DNA of 64,000 nt from Blastococcus colisei (lineage in GTDB: Bacteria > Actinomycetota > Actinomycetes > Mycobacteriales > Geodermatophilaceae), in contig NZ_VFQE01000001.1 of assembly GCF_006717095.1 (NCBI RefSeq), positions 124,001 through 188,000 of the forward strand. Reading direction: 5' to 3'. Shown here one piece after another: positions 8,807 through 64,000 of the stretch. The first letter of the stretch is position 1. Each line of letters starts with the position of its first letter. Below the pieces are notes generated by a model. It was not told the origin of the DNA. It was given only the letters and a program-made list of their open reading frames with translations, and did no database searches. A program made the position numbers and the translations under genes.

Positions 8807-11113
8807 CTAGCCGAAGCGGACGGCGAGCAGCGCGACGTCGTCCCGGTGGTCCAGGGCCGCGCTGACCGCGGCGTCGCAGAGCTCCCGCGGCCCCGCGCCG
8901 ACCGGTGCCGCGGCGATCCGCTCGCGCAGCTCGTGGATGCCCTGGTCCATGTCCTCGCCCGGGCGCTCGATGAGCCCGTCGGTGTAGGCGATGAGCGTCG
9001 AACCGGCAGGGACGTCGAGGACGACGGTCGAACGGTGGGCCTCCGCGTCCACGCCGACCAGCATCCCGGTGATCTCCTCGAGCACCCGTACGTCGCCGCC
9101 GGGTGACCGCAGCAGCGCCGGGGGATGGCCGGCGCTGGCCAGGTGCAGCCGCCACGGCGCTCCCGCCGTCTCGGGCCGGACCGCGCGGGCGTAGACCATG
9201 GTGGCGAGCGAGGCGACCCCCAGACCCTGGACCAGCCGGTCCACGCGCGCCAGCATCCGCCCCGGGTCGGCGTCCTCGGCGTCCCAGATGCAGGCCCGCA
9301 GGAGCCCGCGCAGGTGCCCCATCGCCGCGGCGGCGGCCACGTCGTGACCGACCACGTCCCCCACCACCATGCCGACGGAGTCGTCGGGCAGGTGCAGCAG
9401 GTCGTAGAAGTCGCCGCCCACGTCGGCCACCGACGAGGCACTGACGTAGTGGGCGGAGGCCACGATGCCCGGCACCTCGGGCAGGACCGGCAGCAGGGAG
9501 CGCTGCAGGGTATCGGCCACCGCGTGCTCCCGCTGGTAGAGCCGCACGTTGTCGATCGCCAGGGCGGCCCGCCCGGCGAGGTCCTCGAGGATCTCGACGT
9601 CGTCGCGGGTGAAGGCACGGTCGGCGGACGTCCGGACCAGAGCGATGGCGCCGAGCGTCCGGCGGCGGGCGAGCATGGGAACGGTCAGCACCGAGCTGCC
9701 GCCCAGCCGGTGGAAGGCCTCCCGCGCGGTCGGGGACGTGACGGCCTCCTCGAGGATCTCCGGCGTCACCTCCGCCAGCAGCACCGGTTGTGACGTCGAG
9801 ATGCTCCGGCGGCTGGGCGACATGGCCGGCAGGTGCATCACGTGCTGGGCGGTGAACTCCCGCAGATCCGCCTCCCGGCCGTGGCGGTGGCGGGCGACGG
9901 CGTCGTGGATCTCGCCGTACTCGTCGAGCACCGTGACGTAGGCCCAGTCGGCGAGCCGGGGCACGCACAGGCCGGTCAGCCGGTCCAGGAGCTCGGACAT
10001 GTCGAGCGTGGCGATCAGCGTGCTGGTGGCCTCGGCCATGAGCGCCAGCCGGCCCTGGGCGCGCTCCGCCGCTGCCTGGGCGTGCTCGGCATCCGTCTGC
10101 GCCTGCTCCGCCACCGAGCGGGCGAGCTCGGCCTCCTGCCGCGCGGCCTGCTCGGCCGCGAACGCCGCCTCCCGCTCCCGCTCCACCCGCACGCGCTCGG
10201 TGACGTCGGTCTGCACGCCCACGAAGCTGACCAGGTCGCCGTCCCCGTCGAACACCGGGCTGACCGACAGCTGGTTCCAGAACGCGGTGCCGTCCTTGCG
10301 GTAGTTCAGCAGCGTCGTGGTGACCGTCTCGCGCGCCTCGAGCCCCGCCCTGATCGTCGCCACCGCGTCGGCGGCGGTGGCCGGCCCCTGGAGGAACCGG
10401 CAGTTGCGCCCGATGACCTCGTCGGCCTCGTAGCCGGTGACCCGCGTGAACGACGGGTTGACCCAGACGAGCGGGTCGTCCGGCTGGCGGGGGTCGGTGA
10501 TGGTGAAGGTGATGTCGGTGGCGATCACCGCCCGCTCCCGCAGCGCCTGCAGGTAGGCGTCCGGGTCGCCGCTCTGCTCCGGCGGGTCCAGGTGCAGGAA
10601 GACCACGAGGGAGAGCTGCTGGTCGCTCCCGGCCCGGGACAGCGGGAAACCGGTCACCCAGAGCAGCTGGTCACCGAGGCCGCCGGCGTCCGCGGCCCCC
10701 GCACGTCCGGGCTCGGTGCTCGTCCCGGGCGCCAGCCGCACGGCCTCGCCGGTGACCGGGCGCCCCTGGGCCACCGTCGACAGCGGCCCGCTGCTGGTCG
10801 CCAGCGGCCGGCCGGCCAGGTCGGTCAGACCCGCCGCCGCGCCCCAGGTGTCGATGTCCACGGGCAGCCCGACGTCGCCGGCCAGGTGCACCGCCGCGGT
10901 GTTGGCGTAGACGACGGAGCCGGCCTCCCGGTCGATGACCAGCACGGCGACCGGCACGTCGGCCAGGACGCCGGGAAGGCCGGCGTGCGCCGCCTTCCCG
11001 GAATCGGCGACGGCGGCGCTGGCGGCGGTGACGATGCCCACCTGCTGCCCGAGGTCTGCCTCGGGTGCGAGGGGAGTCCCGGAACGGTCACGCTCGGACG
11101 GCACGGAGGCCAT
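8807..11113 (-). CDS. LOV-domain photoreceptor phosphatase (PAS-LOV-GAF-PP2C)
   Basis: 768 residues. Order: N-terminal PAS-like region (about 45-175), a LOV domain (185-312), a short Glu/Ala-rich coiled coil (about 312-360), GAF (365-525) and a SpoIIE/RsbU PP2C phosphatase (about 545-768). The LOV core is textbook: GRNCRFLQG with the photoactive Cys at 238, NYRKDGTAFWN, and SFVGVQTDVTER containing the flavin-contacting Gln 301. The phosphatase keeps its metal aspartates (VGGDFYDLLHL, VGDVVGHD, HRDDVALLAV). It should sense blue light through an FMN-cysteinyl adduct and dephosphorylate an anti-sigma antagonist, activating a stress sigma factor. The target is not adjacent; an RsbW-type kinase is encoded at 38.6 kb. 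Start ATG 11113. Confidence 0.92.
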   Translation of the reverse strand: MASVPSERDRSGTPLAPEADLGQQVGIVTAASAAVADSGKAAHAGLPGVLADVPVAVLVIDREAGSVVYANTAAVHLAGDVGLPVDIDTWGAAAGLTDLAGRPLATSSGPLSTVAQGRPVTGEAVRLAPGTSTEPGRAGAADAGGLGDQLLWVTGFPLSRAGSDQQLSLVVFLHLDPPEQSGDPDAYLQALRERAVIATDITFTITDPRQPDDPLVWVNPSFTRVTGYEADEVIGRNCRFLQGPATAADAVATIRAGLEARETVTTTLLNYRKDGTAFWNQLSVSPVFDGDGDLVSFVGVQTDVTERVRVEREREAAFAAEQAARQEAELARSVAEQAQTDAEHAQAAAERAQGRLALMAEATSTLIATLDMSELLDRLTGLCVPRLADWAYVTVLDEYGEIHDAVARHRHGREADLREFTAQHVMHLPAMSPSRRSISTSQPVLLAEVTPEILEEAVTSPTAREAFHRLGGSSVLTVPMLARRRTLGAIALVRTSADRAFTRDDVEILEDLAGRAALAIDNVRLYQREHAVADTLQRSLLPVLPEVPGIVASAHYVSASSVADVGGDFYDLLHLPDDSVGMVVGDVVGHDVAAAAAMGHLRGLLRACIWDAEDADPGRMLARVDRLVQGLGVASLATMVYARAVRPETAGAPWRLHLASAGHPPALLRSPGGDVRVLEEITGMLVGVDAEAHRSTVVLDVPAGSTLIAYTDGLIERPGEDMDQGIHELRERIAAAPVGAGPRELCDAAVSAALDHRDDVALLAVRFG

Positions 11114-11275
11114 CTAACCGTGTGCCACGTACCTGTCTCCACGGCTGTTGCTCCGCCCTGACCTGGGCTCCTGCCTGGGAGCGTGTGGCGGGACGTCGTC
11201 CGGGGAACGCCTGTCCCGGTCCGTTCGTCACCGGAGCGGACGCCGCGCTCCGCGGTCACGCCGAGAGGAACCACC

Positions 11276-11977
11276 ATGGGACTGCTCGATCGCCTCTTCG
11301 GCCGCCATCCGCGCGGGGGCCCCCAGCAGCACGGCTCCGGTCAGTACGGGCAGCAGGCGTACGCACCGCAGCAGTACGGGCCGCCGGGCGGGCCGTCCGG
11401 CCGCCGCGAGCAGTTGCCCGACGACCAGGCGATCGCCCGGTACCGCTACCTGCTGCGCACGGCGCCGCCCGAGCAGATCGAGCAGGCCCACACCGAGGCG
11501 TTCGGCCAGCTCACCGTCGACCAGCGACAGCAGGTGCTGGCGCAGCTCGCGGCCGCCGTGCCCTCCGGTGAGCGGCCACGCACCGACGACCCCGAGACCC
11601 TCGCCCGGGTCGCCACCCGCGCCGAGATGCGGCAGCCCGGCACCCTCGAGCGGGCCCTCGGCGGCTACGGGCCCGGCTACGGCGGGGGCAATGGCGGTGC
11701 CTACGGCAGGGGCTACGGCGGGCCCGGGATGGGCAGCATGATCGGCGGCAGCCTCCTCGGCACCATCGGCGGGCTCGTGATCGGGACCGCCGTCGCCGAC
11801 GCGCTGTTCGACTCCGGGATCGGTGACGGCGGCCTGTTCGGCGGAGGGGACGAGGAGGCCTACGCCCAGGGCTTCGAGGACGGCGCCGGCGACTACGGGG
11901 ACGGCGGCGGCGACTTCGGCGGCGGGGACTTCGGGGGCGGGGACTTCGGGGGCGACTTCGGGGGCGGCGACTTCTGA
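11276..11977 (+). CDS. hypothetical protein with Gly/Asp/Phe-rich tail
   Basis: 233 residues; ATG 11276 follows GAGAGGA with good spacing. A basic, Gln/Tyr-rich N-terminus precedes a helical region (about 45-120, including 'DDQAIARYRYLLRTAPPEQIEQAHTEAF' split over two helices), then a Gly-rich stretch with one hydrophobic segment (SLLGTIGGLVIGTAVADALF, about 160-180). The C-terminus is an acidic tail ending in GGGDFGGGDFGG repeats. This resembles small actinobacterial cationic/glycine-rich proteins with no known role. Its last 85 bases overlap the 3' end of the convergent gene. Confidence 0.7.
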   Translation: MGLLDRLFGRHPRGGPQQHGSGQYGQQAYAPQQYGPPGGPSGRREQLPDDQAIARYRYLLRTAPPEQIEQAHTEAFGQLTVDQRQQVLAQLAAAVPSGERPRTDDPETLARVATRAEMRQPGTLERALGGYGPGYGGGNGGAYGRGYGGPGMGSMIGGSLLGTIGGLVIGTAVADALFDSGIGDGGLFGGGDEEAYAQGFEDGAGDYGDGGGDFGGGDFGGGDFGGDFGGGDF

Positions 11978-12402
11978 GCCGTGGGCCGTCGCAGCAGGAG
12001 CAGCCCCAGCACCGGCAGGACCAGCGGCACGAAGTAGTAGCCACGGCCGTAGCCCGACCACACCGTCTCGTCGGGGAAGGCCGCCGGATCGGCGATCGAG
12101 AGCGTGCCGACGACGAGCACGCCGATCAGCTCCACCGTGATCGCCACCAGGGCGGTCCGCCGTCCGGCCACGCCGCCACGGACCAGCCCGACGGTGGCCA
12201 CCACGTAGACCGCCGCAGCGAGCGCCGACAGCAGGTAGGCCACCGGTGCCTCGTCGAACCGGGTGGCCAGCTGTACTGCCGCCCGGGCGCCGGCAGCCAG
12301 TGCGAAGGTGCCGTAGACCGCCACCAGCACCCGCCCCGGGCCCGATGTCCCCGGGCCGCCACCGCTCTCGGCCGGCGCGCCCAGTGCGCGGTCCTCACGC
12401 AC
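11893..12402 (-). CDS. small membrane protein, tail overlaps convergent gene
   Basis: 169 residues from GTG 12402, which overlaps the last eight bases of the upstream gene (12395-12402), so the pair is translationally coupled. Four hydrophobic segments (about 24-45, 54-74, 81-103 and 117-136, ending VPLVLPVLGLLLL) are followed by a basic C-terminal tail of SPPPK repeats. Those repeats are the antisense reading of the GGGDF codons of the convergent gene, so the real protein may have gained the tail when an earlier stop was lost. No recognised family. Confidence 0.65.
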   Translation of the reverse strand: MREDRALGAPAESGGGPGTSGPGRVLVAVYGTFALAAGARAAVQLATRFDEAPVAYLLSALAAAVYVVATVGLVRGGVAGRRTALVAITVELIGVLVVGTLSIADPAAFPDETVWSGYGRGYYFVPLVLPVLGLLLLRRPTAQKSPPPKSPPKSPPPKSPPPKSPPPSP

Positions 12403-12760
12403 CGGTGGTCTCCCAGAGCTGCAGCAGCCGCCAGACCATGACGCCGACGACGGCACCGGCCACGGCGAGCACGGTGCCCGCCCAGCGGGTGCGCTCCGTC
12501 CGTGCCCACAGCACACCCGCGACCGGCACCAGCGCGACGCCGATGAGGTAGCTGAGGAACGTCGGGGTGTCCTCCGGGCTCTCGCCGCCCACGAGGGCCG
12601 CGACCGCGAGGGCGGCCTGGAGCAGGAGCAGTGCCTCCAGCAGCCCGGCAGCGGCCAGGTGCAGCAGGCCGATGCGCCGGTGGGCGAGCGTGGAGAGCAG
12701 TCCGAGCAGCGTCACGACCACCGCCACCACCGTGATCGTGCCCACGAGGAACGGCGTCAC
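12395..12760 (-). CDS. small four-TM membrane protein
   Basis: 121 residues from GTG 12760, starting MTPFLVGTITVVAVVV. About four transmembrane helices, with a conserved-looking AHRRIGLLHLAAAGLLEALL in the middle and a WARTERTRWAGTVLAVAGAV segment near the end. It is the first gene of a two-gene unit with the overlapping downstream membrane protein. No domain recognised. The open frame upstream of 12760 has no other plausible start and low coding character. Confidence 0.65.
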   Translation of the reverse strand: MTPFLVGTITVVAVVVTLLGLLSTLAHRRIGLLHLAAAGLLEALLLLQAALAVAALVGGESPEDTPTFLSYLIGVALVPVAGVLWARTERTRWAGTVLAVAGAVVGVMVWRLLQLWETTGA

Positions 12761-12968
12761 CGGTGTCGATCCGCGAGGAGGAGGCTGGCCTGCACGGGGC
12801 CCATCCTCTCCCGCTCGCTGCCGCGACCGTCGCAGGCCCGGCGGGCAGTGCTGCGGGACGGCCACCTGATCGCCGTTCCGTGGAATTGACCGTAACTACC
12901 GAGTAACCCCTACGGCGCAGCCTCGTTGTCCGGTCACGTCCGCCGCCGTGACCCCCGCGAGGAGCGCC

Positions 12969-60242: not shown

Positions 60243-60989
60243 TCACGGAGCAGGGACGACGAGCGTCAGGGCGGTGCCGCCGCCATGTTCCACGTGCAAC
60301 CCCGCCCGTCGCAGCAGGCTCCTCAGCCGCACGACGTCGGCCGGCTCCGCCGTCGACAGGGCGAGCAGCCGGGCGACCCGGCCCTTGTGCGCCTTGTTGA
60401 AGTGGCTGACCACCGAGCGGCGGCCGTCCGGGCGCTCACTGAGCACCTCGAGGGTCACGGCGCCGGGCACGGGCGCGAGCGCGGCGTACGAGCCGCTGCG
60501 GAGATCGACGACGAGGTCGTCGACGGCTGCCAGGACGGGAGAGAGGGCCGGCTTCCACATCGCGCGCAGGGTCGGCAGGCCGGGGAGCGTCGAGCCGGCG
60601 GAGAGCCGGTAGGCCGGGATCGGGTCCTCGCCGCGGACCACCCCGAACAGCGCGGAGCCCACGGCCAGCCGCCGTCCGGCCCGGGCGCGCTGCGCCCGCG
60701 TCATCGAGGCGACGTCCAGCGCGTCGTAGAGGACACCGGTGTAGCGCTCCAGCGCCGGACGGGTGGGGCTCGTCCAGAGCTCGGCGTTGCGCGCGATCTC
60801 GGCGTCCTGCTTCGGTGAGAGGCCGAGGGCGGCGCGCGCGGCCGGGACGTCGCCGGCGAGCTTTCCCAGCGCCTCGGCGATCTCGGTGCGCACCGGGGTC
60901 AGTTCCGGTGCGGTCAGCGCGGCGAGGTCGAGCGGCGCGCCGTCCCCGCCGGGTGCCTTGGTCTCCGACGGCGGCAGCAGGACGAGCAC
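60243..60989 (-). CDS. yaaA: peroxide stress protein YaaA (DUF328 family)
   Basis: 248 residues from GTG 60989. Begins MLVLLPPSETKAPGGDG, the YaaA hallmark, and contains WTSPTRPALERYTGVLYDAL, GVVRGEDPIPAYRLS and VVSHFNKAHKGRVARLL. In E. coli YaaA lowers free iron and protects DNA under peroxide stress. A 14-base parS-like match lies inside the gene near its 3' end. Confidence 0.92.
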   Translation of the reverse strand: MLVLLPPSETKAPGGDGAPLDLAALTAPELTPVRTEIAEALGKLAGDVPAARAALGLSPKQDAEIARNAELWTSPTRPALERYTGVLYDALDVASMTRAQRARAGRRLAVGSALFGVVRGEDPIPAYRLSAGSTLPGLPTLRAMWKPALSPVLAAVDDLVVDLRSGSYAALAPVPGAVTLEVLSERPDGRRSVVSHFNKAHKGRVARLLALSTAEPADVVRLRSLLRRAGLHVEHGGGTALTLVVPAP

Positions 60990-61072: not shown

Positions 61073-61265
61073 CTAGCCCGCGAGGTCGACGATCACGGGT
61101 GCGTGGTCGCTGGCGCCCTTGCCCTTGCGCTCCTCGCGGTCGATCCGCGCGCCCGTCACCCGGCCGGCGAATGCGGGGGAGCCGAGCACGAAGTCGATCC
61201 GCATGCCCTCGCGGCGCGGGAAGCGCAGCTGAGTGTAGTCCCAGTACGTGCGGGTGGGGCCCGTT
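61073..61265 (-). pseudogene. xth: 3' fragment of exodeoxyribonuclease III
   Basis: The frame encodes the C-terminal end of exodeoxyribonuclease III: YWDYTQLRFPRREGMRIDF, VLGSPAFAGRVTG and the catalytic SDHAPVIVDL, ending at TAG 61075-61073. Upstream of about 61265 the homology stops abruptly in unrelated, more AT-rich DNA, so roughly 200 N-terminal residues are missing from this side. The cut lies in the middle of a coding region, which points to insertion or deletion. The other half may lie past the window. Confidence 0.8.
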
Positions 61266-61822
61266 GACCAGCGAGACGACGCGCACTTCACCTCTGAGCT
61301 GCAGAGATACATGCCAGCCAATCAGTGTCAACCAACATCAATTACAAGATCATGTGCCCCGATTGTGCCCCACCAGGGTTTCCGGCCGCTCGCCGGCGCG
61401 GCGCTGGTGATCCGAATGCCTCAGCTCGGCCAGTGCGCGTCACGCAGCACCACCGCGCGAGCCCACGCGGTCGGCGCCTTCCACGCTCATCTGCGTCAGG
61501 CCGGGAACGGGCCGGACGTGGGCTCCGCACGGCGGCATCTTCGTACTCACGGGGTCCCGCGCCTGCCCGCGGCCTACCCTGCAGATGACGCTCCTGAGGA
61601 CTCGCCTCGTCGAGGCGGCCCAAGCTCAGGCGTCCTTCGGTGAGCGGCGACACGCCGCCCTGGCGCGACGCGCCGCCAGCTACCTGGCTGTGTGCTCTGG
61701 GTCGTTGTGTCGGTATCCGCAGGCATGATTCGCTCGAAGTGGTGAGCAGGCCTGGACAAGACGACCGCTCGGGCGTACCGGCCGGGGCGCAGTTAAGGTC
61801 GGGTCAAACCGAAGGGGGTCAC
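61266..61822. other. non-coding junction segment, AT-richer at left
   Basis: About 560 bases without a credible gene. Bases 61265-61370 are clearly lower in GC than the surrounding DNA and include a repeated GTGCCCC motif (61351 and 61366 region). The rest returns to high GC. Likely the boundary of an acquired element. Confidence 0.55.
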
Positions 61823-62113
61823 ATGACGGCGACAGTTGCCGACTGGCAGGAAACGGGGCCTGTCGACCTGCGCGGATGGGATCCATTGGCCGCGGACCGG
61901 GCTGCCGAGCGCCTGGAGCGGCGTGCCCGCGACCTCGCGCTCCGGATCGTCAACCGCCCGGGGGTTCACTCTGCCGACGAGGTGCTGCACGCGGTCTCCG
62001 TGCAGACCAGCCCGGACGCTGCCGCAGCGGCGATCGTCGCGCTTCTCTCCGAGGGGCAGCTCCGGCTGACTGGCCAGCACCGGCTCGTCCCGGGCGAGGC
62101 CGACCCTCAGTAG
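61823..62113 (+). CDS. small winged-helix-like hypothetical protein
   Basis: 96 residues. ATG 61823 follows AAGGGGG. The C-terminal half (LRIVNRPGVHSADEVLHAVS then AAAIVALLSEGQLRLTGQHR) looks like a helix-turn-helix with a wing, suggesting a small DNA-binding or adaptor protein. It converges with the dGTPase-like gene and overlaps its last seven bases. It could regulate or partner with it. I do not recognise a family. Confidence 0.6.
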   Translation: MTATVADWQETGPVDLRGWDPLAADRAAERLERRARDLALRIVNRPGVHSADEVLHAVSVQTSPDAAAAAIVALLSEGQLRLTGQHRLVPGEADPQ

Positions 62114-63450
62114 GCCATCCACGAGTCCAGGGCCGACTGCCCGGTCCGGCCGCGTAGCCGACCGTGCAGGTCGATCACCTGCGCCTCGGTCAGCATGGCG
62201 ATGTAATCGGCGACGCAGCGGGCGAGGCGCGCGGTCCTGTCGCGGTACGCGTTCGCATCCGGCTCGTCGTCGGACATGTGCCAGAGGTCTACCAGTCGCT
62301 TCGGGACCCGGTACTCCTCCCCCTCCCTGCGCGCGCGGGGGAACCACTCCATCAGGTCCTCGAACAGTTCGGCCATCAGCCGACGGTTGCCCTCCTGCAT
62401 GGTGGCCAGCGCCGGGTCGTGGATCACGTAGAACCAGATCAGCTGCTTGAGCATCTTGACGGCGTACTTCGTCTGCGCGGGCACGTCGATCGGGTCGTCC
62501 AGCGGTCCGACCCGGACGGCGCTCACGAAGCTGTTGATCATCTGGCCGGACGCTTGCTGGAGGGCAGCCAGGTCGTCCGAGCCCCCGCGGTAGTGCTTCG
62601 AGCGGCTCAGGAACGTCTCGGCGACGGTTCGGAAAGAGCGTTCCGCGAAGTCTGGACTGAACTCCGGGTCCTTGGGCGCCAGCTGCTTCGTCGCCGCGGC
62701 GACGAAGCGCGACATCTCGCGGCCGTCGGTGTCAAGTAGCCGGGCGATTGGAATCCGGCCGGCGCGCAGGAAGTCCTCCAGGTCGTGGACGGCGTAGGTA
62801 ACGTCGTCCGCCCAGTCCATGACCGCAGCCTCGAGGCTCTGGGCCCCGTCGGGGGACCCCCGGCGGGCAGTGTCGAACGCCTCGCGCTCCGTTGGGTAGG
62901 CGTTCCACTTCTGGTGAGGGCCCCGCTGCCCCTCCGGGCGCATTCGTGGGTACTTGATCAGCGCGTTCAGCGTCCGAGGATTGAGTCCGAGCCCGAGGCC
63001 GGTCTGCGGCCCCCGCCGGAGGATCTTCGTGACCAGGCGGAAGGTCTGGGCGTTGCCCTCGAAGCCATCCAGGCCGTTGCCCTCGCACCACTCGTTGAGA
63101 ACGGCCTCGCCGACGTGCCCGAACGGCGGGTGCCCGAGGTCGTGGGCGAGGCCGGCAGCCTCCGCCGCGGCGATGTCGATGCCGCGCCACGGTGCGAGGC
63201 GCGCGTCGCTGCCCGGCGCGCGGGCGAGGTGTTCCGCGAGCCGCCGCGCGATCTGCGCGACCTTCAGCGTGTGCGTCAGGCGGTTGTGGAACAGCGGGAT
63301 CTCGCCGACGGCGATCACCTGGGTCACGCCGCCAAGGCGCCGGAACCCGTCGGAGTACAGGATCCGGTCAACCCCGTGCTCGGACTGGCTCCGCCGGTCC
63401 CGGGTGGGCACCTCCTCCGCGACCGTGTTCTCCTCGCTCACCGGCTGCAC
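62107..63450 (-). CDS. dGTPase-like HD-domain triphosphohydrolase (atypical subfamily)
   Basis: 447 residues, HD superfamily. Likely hydrolyses deoxynucleoside triphosphates to deoxynucleosides and triphosphate. Metal ligands are in NRLTHTLKVAQIARRLAEHL, AAGLAHDLGHPPFGHVGE (His-Asp) and the later WADDVTYAVHDLEDFLRA. The N-terminus RILYSDGFRRLGGVTQVI matches the dGTPase entry helix but differs from the actinobacterial dgt beside dnaG, and the protein is in a segment that appears acquired. Such dGTPases lower dNTP pools and some limit phages. GTG 63450 is used; GTG 63441 is an alternative. Codon use is less GC-extreme than its neighbours. Confidence 0.88.
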   Translation of the reverse strand: MQPVSEENTVAEEVPTRDRRSQSEHGVDRILYSDGFRRLGGVTQVIAVGEIPLFHNRLTHTLKVAQIARRLAEHLARAPGSDARLAPWRGIDIAAAEAAGLAHDLGHPPFGHVGEAVLNEWCEGNGLDGFEGNAQTFRLVTKILRRGPQTGLGLGLNPRTLNALIKYPRMRPEGQRGPHQKWNAYPTEREAFDTARRGSPDGAQSLEAAVMDWADDVTYAVHDLEDFLRAGRIPIARLLDTDGREMSRFVAAATKQLAPKDPEFSPDFAERSFRTVAETFLSRSKHYRGGSDDLAALQQASGQMINSFVSAVRVGPLDDPIDVPAQTKYAVKMLKQLIWFYVIHDPALATMQEGNRRLMAELFEDLMEWFPRARREGEEYRVPKRLVDLWHMSDDEPDANAYRDRTARLARCVADYIAMLTEAQVIDLHGRLRGRTGQSALDSWMAY

Positions 63451-64000
63451 ACCCCCGCGTTACCTTTCCCTCGGACGGGTCGGCTCGCGGCCTTGCCTGG
63501 CTCCGGGGCTCGTAGTTTCATCGGGGACGTCTCCTCTGTCTTGATCCGGACGGCGGGACGAGGACGGGCCTTCAGCTGCAACTGGGGGCCCGTTCGCTGT
63601 CTACTCGCCGGACCCGACGGCCATCCTCGAACCGTGGTTCGAATTCCACGCTTGTAAGGGCAAGAGGGACGGTAGGTGCGCGCTCCAACGACGTCCAACC
63701 CCCGACACCCCAGGGTTCTGCACTACTTGTGGACAGATCAGTGGACGGACGCATGTCGACATGTGGAACGCTCCGGGGACGCGTCGACGACGCGGCTGTT
63801 CTCCGACGGTCTGACCTGCAAAGACACTGCACACGCGCTGTGGACGGGAGAAAGTCGGGAGAAACTTTGCGCGTCGGTCGCCCGGCGTGTCGCTGTGGAA
63901 GTCACCGCTGGGGACAAACCGGCGCCCTCCGCGGGGAAGCCAGGCAGCGTGGTCCCTCGACGAGCACGTCGATCGGACGCGGCATTGATCTCCTGGCGGT
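63451..64000. other. 550-base segment with no recognisable gene
   Basis: No ORF of coding character. Contains a hairpin CGTGG-TTCGAATT-CCACG at about 63630-63650 and several short TGTGGA motifs (63724-63895), which partly match DnaA boxes. Probably regulatory or element-terminal DNA. Confidence 0.5.

Follow-up and report, generated by a model that had tools for sequence, protein, structure and literature searches.

Gene-restoring integrative mobilizable elements (IMEs), such as SGI1 in trmE and the dusA islands, carry a tyrosine integrase, an excisionase-like gene and accessory cargo, insert into a conserved protein gene at its 3' end and have no complete conjugation channel (PMC8409611). The element described here shares these traits, but its target is xth and its relaxase is of the MobF family. 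A 2017 review placed MobF in no known canonical IME and counted a single canonical IME in Actinobacteria (PMC5704250); later work may differ. We found no paper naming xth as an integration target in the open-access subset of the literature. The AICEs also integrate site-specifically into actinobacterial chromosomes, often by means of a tyrosine integrase (PMC3218068). In contrast to AICEs, the present element has a MobF relaxase and a protein-coding target, and no FtsK/TraB-like translocase or replication initiator was recognised among its ORFs.

Two described defence systems are close to its cargo. One is an anti-phage dGTPase encoded by a single gene (NCBIfam NF041026; Tal et al. 2022, as cited in PMC12265719), and the other is Clover, which consists of the dGTPase CloA and the nucleotidyltransferase CloB (PMC12265719). 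Like the former, the locus has an HD-domain dGTPase on a mobile element, and like Clover it pairs a dGTPase gene with a second gene. It differs from the first in that its dGTPase reaches 212.8 bits on NF041026, below the cut-off of 400, and has a small partner. It differs from Clover in that this partner is a 96-aa winged-helix protein; no nucleotidyltransferase was recognised in the element.

The window analysed here is a stretch of 64,000 nucleotides (positions 124001-188000 of contig C1). We consider it highly probable (about 0.93) that positions 61233-64000 form one end of an IME of 12.8 kb in a Geodermatophilaceae bacterium, and that this IME inserted into xth and restored the gene with its own tail.

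Results

The xth repeat and the empty site

Homology to xth begins at the stop codon of the gene (61073) and ends at 61250. This 178-bp piece is a direct repeat (86% identity, E=2e-55) of the 3' end of an intact 267-aa xth located 12.8 kb further on, at C1:197890-198693 and thus outside the window. Judged by the recurrence of the paired arrangement in 18 family genomes, the repeat is far beyond chance. Eight genus-mates have an empty site, at which xth is followed straight away by a yaaA-like gene; in the window this gene comes after the xth remnant. No tRNA is present in the 64-kb window, so a tRNA was rejected as the insertion target.

The preliminary description had taken the xth fragment for the edge of an acquired segment, and the direct repeat, the distant intact xth and the empty site in relatives support this. 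The abrupt end that it reported is real but lies at 61250, not at 61265. Its remark that the DNA beyond this edge is richer in AT also holds, since the GC content of the element is 69.5% compared to 73.2% and 72.7% in the flanks, and its 3-kb windows have the lowest GC of the 96 kb examined. Relaxed codon use, ascribed to the dGTPase gene, is weakly visible there (GC3 of 0.92 against 0.93-0.97 in host genes) and clearer in other cargo (0.76-0.82). The non-coding stretch (about 61251-61822, without a convincing coding signal), the small winged-helix ORF and the convergent dGTPase gene were all present, and the integrase and the rest of xth were found beyond 64 kb, where they had been predicted.

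Table 1. Features of the element and its borders. Plain positions refer to the window, those with the prefix C1 to the contig.
Feature	Position	Strand	Basis
yaaA-like host gene, directly after xth at empty sites	60243-60989	-	PF03883; 8 empty-site genus-mates
Displaced original 3' end of host xth (remnant, attachment-site repeat)	61073-61250	-	178-bp, 86% direct repeat; tail closer to genus-mates
Crossover core GTACTGGGACTACAC, invariant part TGGGACTACAC	61233-61247	-	15/15 junction pairs; Blastococcus DSM 46786 junctions
Conserved element motif GCTGGTC just outside the core, possible integrase arm site	61266-61272	-	Most remnant-side flanks; function inferred
Small winged-helix protein, 96 aa, convergent partner of the dGTPase	61823-62113	+	Homologues L129, L137, L154; winged-helix model
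HD-domain dGTPase, 447 aa, cargo	62107-63450	-	TIGR01353, PF01966, PF13286, PADLOC dGTPase; HD motif kept
Element interior, running past the window to C1:198050	63451-64000	.	
IrrE-like peptidase	C1:188402-189301	-	
XRE protein	C1:189314-189751	-	
SIR2_2 protein	C1:190439-191845	-	
SLFN_AlbA_2 (Schlafen-AlbA_2) protein	C1:191928-193238	-	
TrwC/MobF relaxase	C1:193445-196258	+	PF08751 1e-53
Excisionase-like HTH_17 protein	C1:196418-196627	+	
Tyrosine integrase	C1:196688-197893	+	

The crossover is bounded to 15 bp inside xth

Alignment columns 71-80 were identical in 15/15 element junction pairs, and in all of these the remnant homology begins sharply at TGGGACTACAC. Most flanks on the remnant side have the motif GCTGGTC, or a close approximation of it, upstream of TGGGACTACAC. 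Across columns 151-180, the xth of the host genus was nearer to the remnant than to the intact copy in all seven cases tested; for the remnant in the window, the values to the empty-site xth of genus-mates were 0.86 versus 0.73 for the intact copy.

Blastococcus sp. DSM 46786 (L129, L130) has a 17,669-bp contig with a sibling element, and an empty site on another contig. Its left junction is identical to the host up to the end of GTACTGGGACTACAC and its right junction from the start of GTACTGGGACTACAC; together with the empty site, the two bound the crossover to these 15 bp. The presence of occupied and empty sites in one draft assembly fits excision in culture, and it could also reflect a mixed culture. 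Between the two genera the element DNA was 91-96% identical and the host genes 74-82%, which points to transfer of the element after these genera parted.

Distribution of the element family

Among 112 family genomes, all 16 fetched integrases with at least about 73% identity abut the xth stop, while none of the 14 less similar ones do. An xth remnant besides a fuller xth occurs in 18 of the 107 Geodermatophilaceae genomes with an xth match, on one contig or split over two, and where both ends share a contig they are about 3 to 69 kb apart. The segment is absent from most relatives, as opposed to being conserved in all of them. A near-complete integrase abutting xth was found in 14 genomes, 12 of which have a relaxase match. 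Since the elements of G040 and G062 have none, the backbone is not universal, and in G012 the integrase end alone remains between xth and yaaA.

The order of relaxase, excisionase-like protein and integrase is kept in most near-complete elements, and the cargo differs. It includes a C5-methyltransferase with DndB (G019), PIN_3 with HTH_17, Abi_C and ThiF (G028), a TIR effector (G059), a weak Mrr_cat match (G025) and metal transport (G043); PIN_3 with HTH_17 was also recognised by sequence in G059 and G030. A large share of the family's cargo belongs to defence or toxin-antitoxin types, and some does not.

Three further observations concern integration sites. In G040 and G043 (L120, L121) the remnants have an element-like tail sequence (TNALIDR), possibly due to successive insertions at one site. 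In another family of the order, a 65% identical integrase (L164 of G193, about 10629-12841) lies beside the end of a gene that looks by eye like ychF, which suggests that sister integrases target other conserved genes. Contig 25 of G039 (L145) has an element at a different site, with a distant integrase, a 35% identical dGTPase, a 75% identical relaxase and a PIN-type pair.

The dGTPase and its small winged-helix partner

The dGTPase matches TIGR01353 at 3.5e-64 (217.7 bits, curated cut-off 152.35) and the PADLOC dGTPase model at 8.8e-85, and the residues of its HD motif are kept in homologues. Close relatives are encoded in G020 (97% identity) and G100 (76%), and distant ones (38-41%) in four family genomes. 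A search of 397 genomes recovered the small ORF in three, those that also encode this dGTPase or a close relative. Its homologues are 95%, 60% and 27% identical in L129, L137 and L154, and they are always convergent with the dGTPase gene; in the actinobacterial elements the two ends overlap or nearly do. In G529, which belongs to another family, the gene for a 53% identical dGTPase converges with an ORF of 81 aa that is homologous to the small protein (27% identity; hhalign E 2.2e-5), and a relaxase gene is nearby. Next to this pair is a 1037-aa ORF (L161, 9796-12909).

AlphaFold2 modelled the 96-aa protein as a winged helix with a mean pLDDT of 81. Foldseek gave no match at E<=0.001, and many of the top ones were winged helices; PHROGs, Pfam, NCBIfam and PADLOC gave nothing for the small partner. 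Five viral contigs (L165, L166, L167, L168 and L174) have a winged-helix-like ORF of 60-77 aa immediately upstream of a dGTPase that belongs to the wider clade of the present one. The upstream ORFs of L157 and L156 are of similar size, but their relation is less sure. The models of the two partner types agree in the order of their secondary structure, H-H-H-E-E, with three helices followed by two strands. The partner profiles A3 and A5 matched with E 0.0027 at 11% probability, which is weak alone, and for the partner in L157 the actinobacterial profile gave no match (E 0.29), so we do not claim homology of all partners. Judged from ORF lists, a winged-helix-like partner of 60-97 aa accompanies 11/13 dGTPases of the clade and 0/15 of those examined outside it, by our reading; the clade, which contains some long branches, has a support of 89/94. 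We also observed a short ORF with the motif VSELKTLR... GKWSLT immediately upstream of dGTPases that are more distant (L177, L178, L193, L194), perhaps a second kind of small partner.

The two genes had been proposed as a linked pair, and their occurrence in the same three genomes and their convergent order at three different sites support this. dGTPases also have housekeeping roles, and in G100 the pair lies beside purA-like and purD-like genes, away from xth. The dGTPase could accordingly serve dNTP homeostasis or the needs of the element, with the winged-helix protein as an unrelated regulator, and we give this possibility a little less than an even chance. Against it, the pair stays together and convergent at three unrelated sites (the xth elements, the G100 chromosome and the G529 element), related dGTPases have the winged-helix-like partner directly upstream in the five viral contigs, and the host genome has another dGTPase-like gene. 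We tentatively propose, as a possibility somewhat short of probable, that the dGTPase and the mini-winged-helix protein form a distinct, uncatalogued two-gene anti-phage module on IMEs and prophages. In such a module the small protein would either sense infection or hold the dGTPase in check, and the dGTPase would then deplete dGTP. The chances are roughly even that this dGTPase depletes dGTP during phage infection under the control of its partner.

Mobility genes

The stop codon of the integrase overlaps that of xth, and the integrase has the motifs HDLRH and STYGH. Its site-specific junctions, marked by the direct repeat, and a relaxase of a canonical MOB family are both traits of canonical IMEs. 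The relaxase has the histidine motif RHYTSRAGDPHRHLHLQI and a DDYY stretch. No mating-pair formation gene or coupling protein was found among the element ORFs scanned, part of the small ones included; together with the MobF relaxase, this suggests transfer by the machinery of a helper. The IrrE/XRE pair of the cargo matches capP (2.4e-23) and capH (1.7e-4), regulators of a type encoded beside CBASS genes, and no CD-NTase was recognised in the element. A plasmid origin was considered and rejected; at E<=1e-60 none of the plasmid relaxases matched, and the dGTPase had just six matches, all distant.

Tyrosine integrases and excisionase-like proteins occur in phages too, and viral contigs encode dGTPases of 37-40% identity, so the element might be imagined as a prophage or phage satellite with no link to conjugation. 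We regard this as very improbable, as the MobF relaxase is kept in 12/14 near-complete elements, with its histidine motif here, and none of the element ORFs was recognised as a capsid, terminase or packaging gene.

Fate of xth

Still less credible is a truncation of xth by deletion or rearrangement, with the fragment as an ordinary pseudogene among unrelated host genes: the window by itself shows just a lone 3' fragment, but the intact xth with its abutting integrase 12.8 kb away and the pairing in 18 genomes contradict this, and on the sequences compared the paired junctions and the empty site have already refuted it.

The preliminary description had also supposed that xth was disabled, which would affect base-excision repair unless there was a second copy. 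This was overturned by the intact 267-aa gene at the other end of the element, which is completed by the element's own tail and rules out a loss of xth. The tail, roughly the last 50-odd codons, lies beside the integrase. With a pN/pS of 0.16, the tails of the elements show purifying constraint; displaced tails have a pN/pS of 0.30, a difference that we do not read as decay. When the 5' part of the host gene was joined in silico to the displaced tail, it gave a 267-aa frame without stops, as would be expected of the xth that preceded the insertion. Solved ExoIII relatives align through the part supplied by the element, including the RIDFVL and SDHAP stretches. Given the in-frame gene, the constraint on its tail and this alignment, base-excision repair need not be affected and its loss would not be expected.

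Discussion

Comparison of the sequences establishes the insertion, the tail swap, the intact xth, the sporadic presence and a near-identical element in another genus. In the mechanism that we propose for the IME, the tyrosine integrase would recombine the element with the 3' part of host xth, within the codons of the conserved WDYT motif where the core lies. Because the element carries its own last xth codons beside the integrase, the host 5' part is joined in frame to this tail upon insertion and encodes full-length ExoIII, and the original tail is displaced to the far end of the element. The integrase and the excisionase-like protein would move the element, including its excision, and the MobF relaxase would let the machinery of a helper transfer it. 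The cargo (the dGTPase with its mini-winged-helix partner, SIR2, Schlafen-AlbA_2 and IrrE/XRE) is anti-phage in type, judging by family membership and context, and may defend the host. The dGTPase pair would most likely work by depleting dGTP upon infection, and its small protein would act as a repressor or a sensor.

These results describe a clearly delimited family of MobF-bearing actinobacterial elements and place the crossover in a 15-bp stretch of a conserved repair gene. They offer a clear case in which a mobile element supplies the C-terminal part of a host enzyme, including the RIDFVL and SDHAP stretches. They also point to a small winged-helix partner of dGTPases without a name in the libraries used, and mark the interval between xth and yaaA as a place to seek defence cargo in Geodermatophilaceae.
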